The notes beneath the pieces are model-generated. The model saw nothing but the letters and a program-made list of their open reading frames with translations. It made no database searches and was not told where the DNA came from. The position numbers were made by a program, and so were the translations under genes. A stretch of DNA of 64,000 nucleotides from Pseudoxanthomonas sp. X-1 (lineage in GTDB: Bacteria; Pseudomonadota; Gammaproteobacteria; Xanthomonadales; Xanthomonadaceae): positions 2,268,001 through 2,332,000 of the forward strand of contig NZ_CP083376.1 of the NCBI RefSeq assembly GCF_020042665.1, in the 5' to 3' direction. Shown in pieces: positions 26,151 through 31,897 of this stretch. Each line of letters starts with the position of its first letter. Within the stretch, counting starts at the first letter, position 1.

Positions 26151-27356
26151 ATGAGCACCCAGATCACCCTGTCCAAGCGCGCCCTGGCCCTGACCAGCTC
26201 GGCGATCCGCGAAATCCTCAAAGTGACCGAGCGCCCGGAGGTCATCTCCTTCGCCGGCGGGCTGCCGGCAGCGTCGACCTTCCCGGTCGAGCGCATGCGC
26301 GCGGCCACAGACAAGGTGCTCACCGAGGCGCCGCAGGCCGCGCTGCAATACGGCCCGACCGAGGGCTACGGACCGCTGCGCGAGTGGGTGGCGCAGCGCC
26401 TGGCCGCCGCCGGCGCGCCGGTACCGGCCAGCCGCGTGCTGATCGTCACCGGCTCGCAGCAGGGCCTGGACCTGCTCGGCAAGACACTGATCGACGAGGG
26501 CAGCAAGGTGCTGGTGGAAACGCCCAGCTACCTGGGCGCGCTGCAGTCCTTCTCGCTGTTTGCCCCGGCCTTCGCCGGCATGCCGTCGGACGAGGACGGC
26601 ATCGATGTCGACGCGCTCACGCCCGCGCTGCTGGACGGCGCGCGCTTCATGTACTGCCTGCCCAACTTCCAGAACCCCACCGGCAAGCGCCTGCCGCTGG
26701 CCCGGCGCAAGGCGCTGGTCGCCACCGCGCTGGCCGCCGGCGTGCCGGTGGTCGAGGACGATCCCTACGGCGAGCTGAGCTACGGCGGCGAGCACCTGCC
26801 CAGCCTGCTTTCGCTCAACCCCGAGGGCGGGATCTACATGGGCTCGTTCTCCAAGGTGCTGGCCCCGGGCCTGCGCCTGGGCTATGTGGTAGCGCCCGAG
26901 CCGCTGTTCGCCAAGCTGGTCCAGGCCAAGCAGGCCGCCGACCTGCACACGCCGTCCTTCAGCCAGCGCATCGTCTATGAGACCGTCCGCGATGGCTTCC
27001 TGGACGAGCACATCCCGACCATCCGCGACCTCTACGCGCGCCAGTGCCAGCTGATGCTCGATGCGCTCGATCGCTACTTCCCGGCGCAGGCGCACTGGAC
27101 GCGGCCGCAGGGCGGCATGTTCGTCTGGGTGACCCTGCCGCACGGCATCGACACCACCGCGCTGCTGGCCAAGGCGATCGCGCGCAACGTCGCCTTCGTG
27201 CCGGGCGCGCCGTTCTACGCCACCGATCCGCAGATCAACACGCTGCGCCTGTCGTTCGTGACTGTCCCGGGCGAGAAGATCGAGGCCGGCATGAAGATCC
27301 TGGGCGAACTGGTGTCCGAGGCCATCGCCGCGCTGCCGGCCGCCGCGGCGGCATGA
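26151..27356 (+). CDS. PLP-dependent aminotransferase, class I (2-aminoadipate/LysN-like)
   Basis: This 401-residue fold-type I enzyme shows the subgroup Ib/MocR-like aminotransferase signatures: ISFAGGLPAASTFPVE (about residues 31-46), LQYGPTEGYGPLREWVAQRL, IVTGSQQGLDLLGKTLID, the active-site block PNFQNPTGKRLPL, VVEDDPYGELSY, and the Schiff-base lysine in GSFSKVLAPGLRLGYV (about 230). Close relatives are annotated as 2-aminoadipate or aromatic/branched-chain aminotransferases; the amino acid used cannot be fixed by eye. There is no GntR DNA-binding domain. Its stop overlaps the dapB start (ATGA), which hints at a link to lysine metabolism, for example N-succinyl-diaminopimelate transamination, though that step normally uses DapC/ArgD. 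Confidence 0.9.
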   Translation: MSTQITLSKRALALTSSAIREILKVTERPEVISFAGGLPAASTFPVERMRAATDKVLTEAPQAALQYGPTEGYGPLREWVAQRLAAAGAPVPASRVLIVTGSQQGLDLLGKTLIDEGSKVLVETPSYLGALQSFSLFAPAFAGMPSDEDGIDVDALTPALLDGARFMYCLPNFQNPTGKRLPLARRKALVATALAAGVPVVEDDPYGELSYGGEHLPSLLSLNPEGGIYMGSFSKVLAPGLRLGYVVAPEPLFAKLVQAKQAADLHTPSFSQRIVYETVRDGFLDEHIPTIRDLYARQCQLMLDALDRYFPAQAHWTRPQGGMFVWVTLPHGIDTTALLAKAIARNVAFVPGAPFYATDPQINTLRLSFVTVPGEKIEAGMKILGELVSEAIAALPAAAAA

Positions 27357-28087
27357 CGGTGAAGGGCGATCGCACGAGCCCGCCGCTGCGGGTGCTGATC
27401 CACGGTGCGTCGGGCCGCATGGGCCAGGCGCTGCTGCGGCTGGCTGCCGGCGAGCCCGCGCTGCAGGTCGTGGCCGCGGTGACCCATCGCCCGCCGACCA
27501 CGCGCGTGGTCGACGGCGTGGCGTACTTCGCCGCCAGCGAGCTGTCCGGCACGCCGGTGTTCGACGTGGCCATCGACTTCAGCCTGCCGGAAGGGTTCGA
27601 CCCGATCCTGGCGCTGTGCGTGGAGCGCAGGGCGGCGCTGGTTTCGGGCACCACCGGGCTGTCCGAGGGCCAGCGCGCCGCGCTGCAGCAGGCCGCCGGC
27701 GTCATCCCCGCGGTGTGGGCCTCCAACTTCAGCCTGGGCGTGGCCGTGCTGGCCGAACTGGTCGAACGCGCCGCCGCCGCGCTGCCCGGCTGGGACTGCG
27801 ACATCGTCGAGTCCCACCACATCCACAAGCAGGACGCCCCGTCCGGCACCGCGCTGACCCTGGGGCAGGGCGCCGAACTGGCCGGCGCCACGCCGCGCTA
27901 CGCCAGCCTGCGCGCCGGCGACATCGTCGGCGAGCACCTGGTCCAGTTCACCGGCCTGGGCGAGCGGGTGGAACTGACCCATCGCGCCACCAACCGCGAC
28001 ATCTTCGCCCGCGGCGCGCTGCATGCCGCGCAGCGGCTCAACGACCGGCCGCCGGGGCTGTATCGCGTGCGCGATCTGCTGGACTGA
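27353..28087 (+). CDS. dapB: 4-hydroxy-tetrahydrodipicolinate reductase
   Basis: DapB makes tetrahydrodipicolinate in the lysine/diaminopimelate pathway using NAD(P)H. The 244-residue protein has the nucleotide-binding GASGRMGQALLRLA (about residues 19-32), DFSLPEG, SGTTGLSEGQ, SNFSLGVAVL and the catalytic motif ESHHIHKQDAPSGTAL (about 144-159), where the two His and Lys are the conserved active-site residues. It ends FARGALHAAQRL as usual. Translation is coupled to the upstream aminotransferase by a 4-base overlap. Confidence 0.96.
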   Translation: MTVKGDRTSPPLRVLIHGASGRMGQALLRLAAGEPALQVVAAVTHRPPTTRVVDGVAYFAASELSGTPVFDVAIDFSLPEGFDPILALCVERRAALVSGTTGLSEGQRAALQQAAGVIPAVWASNFSLGVAVLAELVERAAAALPGWDCDIVESHHIHKQDAPSGTALTLGQGAELAGATPRYASLRAGDIVGEHLVQFTGLGERVELTHRATNRDIFARGALHAAQRLNDRPPGLYRVRDLLD

Positions 28088-28112: not shown

Positions 28113-28304
28113 TCAGTTGCTCATCGCGATCATGCCGAAGCACGCCGCCGCCAGCAGGATCGTCAGGCCGCCGATCGTGGCCAGGATGCCGATGATGACC
28201 TTGGCCCAGATCGGCAGCCCGCCGCGCTGCGGCTCGGGTACGGGCGGAAGTTCAGGCGGTCGTGCCTGCGAGGGGGAGGTGTCGTCTTGGTCCGCGGTGT
28301 TCAT
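28113..28304 (-). CDS. Small single-pass membrane protein of unknown function
   Basis: A 63-residue protein with a Pro/Gln/Asp-rich N-terminal half (residues 1-31) and one hydrophobic helix (WAKVIIGILATIGGLTILLAAACFGMIAM, about 33-60) that ends at the C-terminus. It overlaps the upstream radical SAM gene by 4 bases (ATGA), so it is translated from the same message. I do not recognise the family. Coupling to the radical SAM and Lgt-like genes suggests a membrane role in that system, possibly as an anchor. Confidence 0.7.
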   Translation of the reverse strand: MNTADQDDTSPSQARPPELPPVPEPQRGGLPIWAKVIIGILATIGGLTILLAAACFGMIAMSN

Positions 28305-29734
28305 GCCGTTGCGTCCTTGAGCGGGGTGCCGTCGACCCAGGCGCGCAGCGCTTGCAGCTGCTGACGCCGGTCGTCACGGTAGAACAGGTTGAAGGTGTCG
28401 AACGGCACGATCGTGCCATCGGGCTGGGCGATATGGACGCAACTCTTCTTCACCGAGCGCAGGTCGAAGCCCTCGGCGTCGATGAAGGCCATGATCAGCA
28501 CGCGGAAGACGTTGCGGTAGTCCAGCCCCTGGGGGGCCTGCACCTGCGGCAGACAGCACAGCAGGTCGGACAGTGAGCAGGCCTGCGACTGCGGCGAATG
28601 GTTGGTGGCGAACAGCTTGAACACGGCCTCGCGCAGCTGGTCGTCCTTCTCCACCACGATGCTGTTGCGGCCGCCCTCGATCAGCACCTCCGGCGGGATC
28701 AGGCCGGTCAGTGGCACCACGCGGTCCTCCAGCTTCAGCGCGTACGCCATCGCCAGCGCATCGGGATGGCAGGGAACCGGGATCAGGTCCTCGGGCCGGA
28801 ACAGCGTGCTCTGCTCGAGGATGCCGCGGCGCACCTCGGTCAGCGTCAAACGGTCGCGCGCCGGGTCATAGCCCTGGGTACGGCCTGCGTGCTGGATCGG
28901 CTGGAAGGTGACCCCGCGCACGCAGGGCTGGCGGCGGGCGAAGTCGATGATCTCGCCCAGCTCGCCGTCGTTGAGTCCCTTCTTGACCGTGACCACCAGC
29001 GTGGTCGAGATGCCGAGCCGATTGAGCGCCTCCAGCGCCCGGCGCCGGACCTCCGCCAGGCGCGCGCCGCGCAGCTCCTGGTGGACCTCGTCGCGCAAGG
29101 AATCGAACTGCAGGTACAGCTCGAAGCCGGGCATGTAGCCGGCCAGGCGCTCGACGAACGCCGGGTCCTTCGCGATCCGCAGCCCGTTGGTGTTGACCAT
29201 CAGGTGACGGATCGGACGGGCCTTGGCCGCATCGAGGATCTCGAAGAACTGCGGGTGCAGGGTCGGCTCGCCGCCGGAGATCTGCACCACGTCCGGTTCG
29301 CCCTCGTTGGCGACCACCGCATCGAGCATGCGCTCGATCGTGGCCAGGTCGCGAAAGCCGGGGCGATGCGGGCCAGAATCGGCGTAGCAGATCGGGCAGC
29401 GCAGGTTGCAGTGATCGGTGACCTCGATCAGGGTCAGGCAGCTGTGCTGCATGTGTTCCGGGCACAGCCCGCAGTCGTAGGGGCAGCCCCAGCGGCGCTC
29501 GGTGTTGAAGCGCTGCGGCAATTCGGGTGGCTTGATGAAGCGCTCGCGGCACAGGCGGTAATACGCGATGTCGTCGGCCATCAGCACGCGCTCGCGGCCA
29601 TGCTGCGGGCACCACTTCTCCAGGTAGACGCCGCCGTCCTTGAACAGGATGGTCGCCTCCACCCGCCGCAGGCAGGTCGAGCACACCGACACCGCGGTGT
29701 CGTAGAACAGGTAGGGCCTTACTTTTGCCGCCAT
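28301..29734 (-). CDS. Radical SAM protein with tetraether-lipid-synthase-like (Tes/MJ0619-type) cysteine layout
   Basis: The 477-residue protein has, in order, a rubredoxin-like site (C18/C21 and C42, with H45), a CPYDCGLC cluster (C84, C88, C91), and the radical SAM cluster CNLRCPIC (C109, C113, C116), then SGGEP (about 147-152), NTNGLRI and a Cys-rich C-terminal stretch (ACSLSDLLCC). This N-terminal order and the phrase GCPYDCGLCPEH followed by a VT(D/N)xCNLRCPIC core match the archaeal tetraether lipid synthase family and its bacterial homologues, which join lipid tails by C-C bond formation. The start at 29734 overlaps the Lgt-like gene by 16 bases; the ATG at 29746 is an alternative. 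Substrate is inferred only from family. Confidence 0.8.
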   Translation of the reverse strand: MAAKVRPYLFYDTAVSVCSTCLRRVEATILFKDGGVYLEKWCPQHGRERVLMADDIAYYRLCRERFIKPPELPQRFNTERRWGCPYDCGLCPEHMQHSCLTLIEVTDHCNLRCPICYADSGPHRPGFRDLATIERMLDAVVANEGEPDVVQISGGEPTLHPQFFEILDAAKARPIRHLMVNTNGLRIAKDPAFVERLAGYMPGFELYLQFDSLRDEVHQELRGARLAEVRRRALEALNRLGISTTLVVTVKKGLNDGELGEIIDFARRQPCVRGVTFQPIQHAGRTQGYDPARDRLTLTEVRRGILEQSTLFRPEDLIPVPCHPDALAMAYALKLEDRVVPLTGLIPPEVLIEGGRNSIVVEKDDQLREAVFKLFATNHSPQSQACSLSDLLCCLPQVQAPQGLDYRNVFRVLIMAFIDAEGFDLRSVKKSCVHIAQPDGTIVPFDTFNLFYRDDRRQQLQALRAWVDGTPLKDATA

Positions 29735-30459
29735 GCAGGGGTCCATGCGATGCGTGGAAGGTCGCGCACATGGTAGGCCACGCCCAGGACGCACAGCAGC
29801 TGCAGGCCGGACAGCAGGCCGAAGTAGTACAGCGGGATCGGCCGGATCGACTCGACGGCCAGCCGGTAGAGCAGGTAGCCGACCAGGAACAGCTTGAAGC
29901 GATCGCCCGAACGCGGCAGGCGGTTGCCATAGCGGGTCAACAGCCCGCCCCACAGCGCGACGAAGGCGATCTCGTAGAGCTGGGTCGGGTGGCGCGCGAT
30001 GCCATCGCCGAAGTCCACACCCCAGGGCAGGGTGGTGGGATTGCCGTAGGTATGGTCCGCCAGCCCGCCCAGGAAACAGCCGATGCGCCCGATGATCATG
30101 CCCACCGTCAGCGGCAGGACGAAGGCATCGCCGGTCGAGCCGCGGATCCCCGCCAGGCGCTTGGCGAGCTCGACGCCGGCCCAGCCACCCAGCAGCCCAC
30201 CGATGATGGACTTGCCCTCCAGCAGGCGACGGAACGAGGGGAAGTCGGCGAAGGCGTAGGCAGGATCGTAGAGCCAGTAGGCGATCTTGCTGCCGACGGC
30301 CGCGCCCAGCACGGTGCCGGCGACCAGCAGCAGCGCCTGGACCCGGTCGGTCTGCCCGGGGTAGGGCAGGCGGCGGCGCTCGCGCAGATAGAGCTGGAAG
30401 CCCACCGAATAGGCGGCCGCCTCCATGAGGGTGTGAAGCCAGTAGGCGTTCAGCGTCAT
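29719..30459 (-). CDS. Prolipoprotein diacylglyceryl transferase-like membrane protein, active site diverged
   Basis: This 246-residue inner-membrane protein has about seven hydrophobic segments and the Lgt core GRIGCFLGGLADHTYG ... LPWGVDFGDGIARHPTQLYE (about residues 122-160), including the RHPxQLYE motif. Compared with true Lgt, the essential His of the HGGL motif is replaced (SIIGGLLG, about 89-96) and the Asn of GRxGNF is Cys. It is therefore unlikely to be the cell's housekeeping Lgt and may use phosphatidylglycerol or another lipid differently. I chose the ATG at 30459; a TTG three bases upstream is in frame. It is the first gene of the operon with the radical SAM protein. Confidence 0.82.
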   Translation of the reverse strand: MTLNAYWLHTLMEAAAYSVGFQLYLRERRRLPYPGQTDRVQALLLVAGTVLGAAVGSKIAYWLYDPAYAFADFPSFRRLLEGKSIIGGLLGGWAGVELAKRLAGIRGSTGDAFVLPLTVGMIIGRIGCFLGGLADHTYGNPTTLPWGVDFGDGIARHPTQLYEIAFVALWGGLLTRYGNRLPRSGDRFKLFLVGYLLYRLAVESIRPIPLYYFGLLSGLQLLCVLGVAYHVRDLPRIAWTPAWRQK

Positions 30460-30766: not shown

Positions 30767-31897
30767 GTGACCCAACCCGCAATCCTGGTCCTCGAAGACG
30801 GCACCGTATTCGAGGGTGAATCGGTCGGCGCGAACGGCCTGTCCGTCGGCGAAGTGGTGTTCAACACCGCCATGACCGGCTATCAGGAGATCGTCACCGA
30901 TCCGTCCTACGCCCGTCAGCTCGTCACGCTGACCTATCCCCATATCGGCAACACCGGCTGCACCGACCAGGACGACGAGGCCGCCAAGGTCTGGTCGGCC
31001 GGCCTGATCGTGCGCGACGTGCCGCGCCGTCCCAGCAACTGGCGCAGCCAGGTCTCGCTGCAGGACTGGCTGGCCGCGCGCGGCGTGGTCGCCATCGCCG
31101 GCATCGACACCCGCAAGCTCACGCGCATCCTGCGCGAGAAGGGCGCGCAGAACGGCGCGCTGATGGCCGGGCAGATCGATGTCGAGCAGGCGCTGGAAGC
31201 CGCGCGCAAGTTCCCGGGCCTCAAGGGCATGGACCTGGCCAAGGTGGTGTCCACCGACAAGACCTACGCATGGACCGATGGCCAGCTGGACCTCGACACC
31301 GGCAAGCCGGTCCAGGCCGCCGCCAAGTTCAAGGTCGTGGCCTACGACTACGGCGTGAAGCTCAACATCCTGCGCATGCTGGTCGAACGCGGCTGCGAGG
31401 TGACCGTGGTGCCGGCGCAGACGCCAGCGGCCCAGGTGCTGGCGCTCAATCCGGATGGCGTGTTCCTGTCCAACGGCCCGGGCGATCCGGAGCCGTGCGA
31501 CTACGCCATCGAAGCGATCAAGGAATTCGTCGCAAAGAAGGTGCCGACCTTCGGCATCTGCCTGGGCCACCAGCTGCTGGCGCTGGCCGCCGGGGCGAAG
31601 ACGGTGAAGATGGGGCACGGCCACCACGGCGCCAACCATCCGGTCATCGACCTGGACTCGGGCCGGGTGATGATCACCTCGCAGAACCACGGCTTCGCGG
31701 TCGACGAGGCCAGCGTGCCGGCCAATGTGCGCGTGACCCATCGCTCGTTGTTCGACGGCACCAACCAGGGCATCGCGCTGACCGATGCGCCGGCGTTCTC
31801 CTTCCAGGGCCACCCGGAAGCCTCGCCCGGCCCGCACGACGTCTCGCCGCTGTTCGACCGGTTCGTCGAGCTGATGGAAACCCAGGCGCGCGGCTGA
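30767..31897 (+). CDS. carA: Carbamoyl-phosphate synthase small subunit
   Basis: CarA hydrolyses glutamine to feed ammonia to CarB for carbamoyl phosphate, used in arginine and pyrimidine synthesis. The 376-residue protein has the N-terminal CPSase domain ([33 protein letters not shown]) and a C-terminal class I glutamine amidotransferase domain with [11 protein letters not shown], the nucleophile in [13 protein letters not shown] (about 263-275) and the catalytic His in [13 protein letters not shown] (about 349). The start is GTG at 30767 ([12 protein letters not shown]); no ATG fits the family. carB follows after 95 bp. Confidence 0.97.

Follow-up and report, generated by a model that had tools for sequence, protein, structure and literature searches.

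The window, that is, the whole 64,000-nucleotide stretch of Pseudoxanthomonas sp. X-1 DNA analysed here (NZ_CP083376.1, positions 2,268,001 to 2,332,000), contains a module of three minus-strand genes that encode a relative of the diacylglyceryl transferase Lgt, a radical SAM (S-adenosylmethionine) enzyme resembling archaeal tetraether lipid synthase (Tes), and a small membrane protein:

29719..30459, minus strand: Lgt-like integral membrane protein gene, 246 aa, from the ATG at 30459
28301..29746, minus strand: Tes-like radical SAM enzyme gene, 477 aa (ATG at 29734) or 481 aa (upstream ATG at 29746)
28113..28304, minus strand: small single-helix membrane protein gene, 63 aa, with a Pro-rich N-terminus and AACFG in the last helix

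The coordinates confirm the overlaps given in a first-pass annotation of this DNA, 16 bp between the Lgt-like and radical SAM genes (29719-29734) and 4 bp between the radical SAM and small genes (28301-28304). Comparison with two genus mates gave ratios of nonsynonymous to synonymous substitution rates (dN/dS) of 0.03-0.06 for the radical SAM gene and 0.12-0.16 for the Lgt-like gene, and a value of 0.28 was obtained for the small gene from one genus mate, the other pair having an alignment gap and giving no value. All three genes are therefore under purifying selection.

The Lgt-like protein and the radical SAM enzyme almost certainly form a fixed partnership across bacteria. Among 299 genomes of the order, the enzyme was found at E <= 1e-60 in 24, at 50% identity or more in 19 and at 32-39% in five. 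A profile of the Lgt-like protein scored above 140 bits in exactly those 19 genomes and in none of the other 280, where its absence is no proof because only a few Lgt candidates were scored per genome (9 of up to 40 for the order, 6 for the phylum). Six more profile matches fell at 111-138 bits and the rest, presumably canonical Lgt, at 77.1 bits or below. The sample of 398 genomes from the phylum, which overlaps that of the order in the window genome and some others, held the enzyme in 12 genomes and Lgt-like matches above 140 bits in the same 12; one further genome had only a 109.9-bit Lgt relative. Flanks were read for 17 of the 19 order genomes, window included, and the Lgt-like gene adjoins the enzyme gene in 15 of the 16 regions other than the window, the sixteenth stopping at a contig edge; in the last two genomes (G189 and G259) the genes are adjacent by coordinates.

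At least 576 relatives of the enzyme were found in 84,980 species genomes, and the best-scoring 80 loci, a selection skewed to close relatives, come from Proteobacteria, Acidobacteria, Bacillota, Cyanobacteria, Bacteroidota, Planctomycetes, Spirochaetes and others. With flanking genes called by a simple script rather than an annotation pipeline, 71 of these loci have an Lgt-like gene upstream in the same orientation (overlapping, or within a gap of 100 bp, in 55) and two have it divergently upstream; for the remaining seven it is found elsewhere in the assembly in six and not in one metagenome-assembled genome (MAG). Genome searches for the nine loci without a same-strand copy found an Lgt-like gene of at least 146.8 bits in eight and, in the ninth, a MAG, gave only 76 bits. 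The operon described by the first-pass annotation is thus a conserved unit far beyond Xanthomonadaceae, and the occurrence of the two genes as a pair across many phyla is a pointer to a membrane-lipid modification in bacteria.

In P0066 the Lgt-like and radical SAM proteins are naturally fused into a single chain of 705 aa, which is weak evidence for the pairing. This fusion was considered as a Rosetta-stone proof and set aside, as it is the only fusion among the best 120 matches listed and unfused radical SAM proteins are identical to its second half. The gene pair is also carried by a MAG labelled as a marine archaeon (L113), which may be a mis-binned bacterial contig, and by a genome labelled Bacillus subtilis (L110), which may be an unusual strain or a mislabel. 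Other carriers of the module include Paenibacillus chitinolyticus, a Collimonas and a Chitinophaga. At one locus (L044, genome G263) a frameshift-like break divides the radical SAM gene into two neighbouring open reading frames (ORFs).

The Lgt-like protein shares its fold with Lgt (PDB 5azb; TIGR00544), matches Pfam LGT at 85.3 bits (cut-off 24.9) and has the near-constant RHP motif, but it falls below the equivalog cut-offs (44 of 118.9 bits for TIGR00544, 54.8 of 334 for NF000778). As a single-sequence query against the PDB, P0001 gave no match. A canonical lgt sits elsewhere in the genome (262.6 bits, versus 84.4 for the copy in the window), so that the Lgt-like gene is not the sole lgt. 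In the alignment to E. coli Lgt, the loss of the catalytic His and of the GRxGNF Asn noted at first pass is borne out: the protein carries SIIGGLLG and GRIGCF, in which His103 of the HGGL motif is replaced by Ile and Asn146 by Cys. Arg143, Tyr235 and Arg239 are kept as R125, Y195 and R199. Among 72 Lgt-like proteins both arginines are conserved throughout, the His103 position is Val in 63, Ile in five and Leu in four, and Asn146 is Cys in every one; Cys128 is identical in all 72, and Glu97, Lys100 and Asp152 are new invariant residues that set these proteins apart from Lgt.

With the Lgt-like profile, a second class of Lgt relatives is placed at 110-138 bits, below the module partner and above presumed canonical Lgt. 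Its members (G015, G052:C28, G038:C241, G003:C1:1082806, G152 and G076 in the order; G316 in the phylum) are found both in genomes that carry this radical SAM gene and in genomes that lack it.

The radical SAM protein has all the elements listed at first pass, a rubredoxin-type site, CPYDCGLC, CNLRCPIC and further C-terminal Cys. Its top NCBIfam model was TrsS (NF045646), aligned over nearly the full length at 319.8 bits against a cut-off of 490, and Tes (NF045702) gave 255.6 bits against a cut-off of 450. Six family members scored 284.3-337.8 and 251.7-298 bits with these two models, all below the cut-offs. The TrsS label, considered for four relatives of 30-39% identity (L045-L048), was dropped since all four are below its cut-off; with the six family members they make ten relatives that, like the window protein, are distinguished from TrsS by score. 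These four form a separate Tes/TrsS-related group below both cut-offs and have no Lgt-like neighbour. Three of them are followed by an ORF with a CCSAFYE motif that resembles a methyltransferase. A prokaryotic viperin was also rejected, as no full-length viperin model matched and the PADLOC pVip matches were partial (49.9 bits over residues 108-225, 43.9 over 109-255).

The profile search proposed with the first-pass annotation placed TrsS and Tes best and no unrelated peptide-modifying family on top. A peptide-modifying maturase of the type acting on ribosomally synthesised and post-translationally modified peptides, with a membrane precursor and no connection to lipids, would account for the small protein encoded next door. 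It is nevertheless very improbable, since peptide-modifying radical SAM families align with the core of the window protein only and at far lower scores, neither a SPASM nor an RRE domain was found in Pfam at E <= 0.1, and the constant partner is an Lgt-fold protein.

The relationship to Tes (GDGT-MAS; MJ0619; PDB 7tol, 7tom) is close over most of the protein. Domain order and fold are shared over 421 residues, as are 11 ligands (C9, C12, C33, H36; C73, C77, C80, H83; C98, C102, C105). In 98 family members the CX2CX20CX2H rubredoxin-type site, whose ligands in Tes are named in PMC9433317, has identical Cys in all and His in 97; C73, C77 and C80 of the N-terminal auxiliary cluster and its His, equated with His83 from a reading of the alignment, are kept in 98, and so is the radical SAM CX3CX2C. 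The C-terminal part differs. Cys338, Cys455 and Cys470 are present in 22 of 22 Tes, from which we infer that they are cluster ligands, but the last two occur in none of the 98 members and Cys338 in 33. Cys326, Cys397, Cys398 and Cys436 (window numbering) are instead identical in all 98 and are the predicted ligands of the C-terminal site; among the 22 Tes, Cys326 is present in eight and Cys436 in two. The window family also forms its own clade, separate from Tes. Kinship with Tes, as first proposed, is upheld, but neither the cut-off nor the clade makes the enzyme a Tes, and the C-terminal Cys set differs.

Met439 and Tyr459 are reported as completely conserved in archaeal Tes. In the family the first position is mostly Met or Val (Met in 53 of 98), and the second is Ile, Phe, Met or Leu, with Tyr in none. 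Their loss was considered as disproof of Tes chemistry and dropped, because the Tes variants M439A and Y459F/L remain active (PMC9433317), so that the missing residues do not exclude such chemistry.

These comparisons bear on whether the enzyme is a true bacterial tetra-ester or tetraether (diabolic-acid-type) synthase, which would couple two phospholipid acyl chains at their omega ends in the manner of Tes, an enzyme that links lipid tails by sp3 C-C bonds, with the Lgt-like protein only feeding phosphatidylglycerol. The full-length Tes fold, the 11 ligands and the tolerance of Tes to loss of Met439 or Tyr459 are consistent with this, and density in the Tes active site has been read as bacterial phosphatidic acid (PMC9433317). 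Zeng et al. counted 456 bacterial Tes homologs and proposed for them a role in the synthesis of branched glycerol dialkyl glycerol tetraethers (brGDGTs) (PMC8941075). Against it, the family lies in a separate clade with scores under the Tes cut-off, has lost the Tes C-terminal Cys set in favour of four other invariant Cys and has a constant Lgt-like partner, whereas archaeal Tes is active without a partner, having been expressed alone in M. maripaludis and purified (PMC8941075, PMC9433317). A Black Sea survey with 281 bacterial MAGs encoding Tes homologs called their activity unconfirmed (PMC11868695). We regard such a synthase as rather unlikely. Lloyd et al. also recorded homologs of Tes for bacteria from which no such chains are known (PMC9433317). 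Bacterial acyl-chain coupling has been assigned to the membrane-spanning lipid synthase Mss by Sahonero-Canavesi et al. 2022 (via PMC13274423, PMC11868695); Mss, compared here by description only, is reported from models to have the Tes catalytic architecture (PMC13274423, PMC11868695) but is treated as distinct from Tes homologs (PMC11868695). The window enzyme is best placed next to Tes in a family of its own, new and so far without a name, whose partner derives from Lgt, and not filed as a Tes.

The altered C-terminal Cys set would also allow another fate for a lipid radical, and the enzyme may change acyl chains without joining two of them, by sulfur insertion from an auxiliary cluster, desaturation or cyclisation. 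SAM-limited Tes makes a sulfur-bearing lipid (PMC9433317), but nothing in the sequence favours any one of these outcomes, and we consider this class of reaction unlikely.

The small protein of the window has one helix, as described at first pass, and matches the last helix, with AACFG, of longer counterparts; elsewhere this description does not hold, as the counterparts beside the pair are mostly longer (median 101 aa for script-called ORFs) and often have several hydrophobic stretches. They are highly divergent in sequence, and Pfam cut-offs were reached neither by eight counterparts tested nor by the window protein. At gammaproteobacterial and bacilli loci the downstream protein usually ends in the AACFG helix. 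At 42 of the 80 loci the radical SAM gene is followed immediately by a small ORF that has a Cys within or next to a hydrophobic stretch, compared with seven of 91 control ORFs (script-called, from 35 of these loci), and under a wider criterion, used without a control, such an ORF is downstream, upstream or between in 64. Two loci (L037 and L062) have two tandem small membrane proteins after the radical SAM gene.

This association, the invariance of Cys128 and the retention of the Arg143/Arg239 centre, which has been proposed to activate the phosphatidylglycerol ester in Lgt, fit an active transferase that moves diacylglyceryl (or phosphatidyl) onto the small-protein Cys or its own Cys128, with the radical SAM enzyme acting on the protein-bound lipid. 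However, His103, essential in E. coli Lgt, is replaced by Val, Ile or Leu in all 72 Lgt-like proteins, and the small-protein Cys is outside a lipobox as generally understood and changes position between lineages. The AAC was itself tried as a lipobox and rejected: many proteins have the Cys in a late helix but others in an early one, and its neighbouring residues do not match a lipobox. An active transferase of this kind is quite improbable.

Taken as a whole, we lean slightly towards a conserved membrane-lipid modification module. The Lgt-like protein would bind, and perhaps polarise or activate, a phosphatidylglycerol-type lipid through its Arg143/Tyr235/Arg239 centre, would not lipidate lipobox peptides without His103, and would supply or hold the lipid for the radical SAM enzyme working from the cytoplasmic side. 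There a 5'-deoxyadenosyl radical could abstract hydrogen from an acyl chain bound in a hydrophobic pocket like that of Tes. A new bond from the chain to another carbon or to sulfur, or some other change of the chain, might follow, and the altered C-terminal auxiliary site may act as radical or electron partner. The substrate is probably a lipid acyl chain, and C-C coupling is suggested only tentatively. The first-pass reading of the operon as a lipid modification system is in this sense partly upheld by the Tes relationship, the altered Lgt and the conserved unit, and the choice of lipid and of its modification is what we infer beyond them.

The module reading loses a little weight because the lipid site of Lgt is described as periplasm-facing. 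This is a problem for it, as the soluble radical SAM enzyme works in the cytoplasm. The topology also offers a help, since the C-terminus of Lgt is cytoplasmic, on the side where the soluble enzyme works. A more specific form of the proposal, which we find conceivable and hold with reserve, is that a catalytically re-tooled Lgt either activates phosphatidylglycerol or binds it covalently, perhaps via invariant Cys128 or the small-protein Cys, and passes the lipid to a Tes-like enzyme that forms a new type of bond on the acyl tails.

The module is bordered by two plus-strand genes named by sequence look:

27353..28087, plus strand: dapB, right flank of the module
30767..31897, plus strand: carA, left flank of the module

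A CarA search of 21 same-genus genomes matched 20, and 12 loci were returned and examined. The module adjoins carA in three, carA and dapB are spaced by 163-227 bp without it in seven, and neither dapB nor the module is in the 1.5-kb flanks of carA in two; some species of the genus therefore have the module and others lack it at this site. In another family of the order it is likewise bordered, at several loci, by genes resembling carA and dapB. At four loci (L030, L031, L032 and L035), also of another family of the order, the Lgt-like gene follows two more genes on its strand, of about 230-290 and 250 aa. At 11 of the 80 loci the Lgt-like gene is preceded on its own strand by a relative of a major facilitator superfamily (MFS) transporter plus acyltransferase, with 37-584 bp between the two genes. 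Pfam domains for both parts were read in one copy (L094), and another (L127) matches in the transporter part only. This neighbour, of LplT and PlsC type, may hint at lysophospholipid turnover.

Among the openly licensed PMC papers listed for these subjects, none links an Lgt-like protein with this radical SAM enzyme; an EVE-domain paper names 'radical SAM' and 'diacylglyceryl transferase' for unrelated loci, and a lipocone paper mentions Lgt and not radical SAM. For TrsS and TrsM the same literature offered a selenoprotein review, a paper on mercury methylation and one on another subject. Branched tetraether lipids serve as climate proxies, and bacterial Tes homologs are their proposed sources (PMC8941075, PMC11868695). 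In our sample, 96 of 98 family members match one or more of 22 archaeal Tes at E < 1e-50 and more than 30% identity (with e-values calculated for a nominal database size of 1e11 residues, published surveys having used single queries), so that homology searches of this stringency do not tell the family and Tes apart. Simple markers that do so are the clade, the Lgt-like partner and the altered set of C-terminal Cys. If the more specific proposal of a re-tooled Lgt handing lipid to the enzyme is true, much of the so-called bacterial 'Tes' would belong to a pathway other than archaeal tetraether synthesis.
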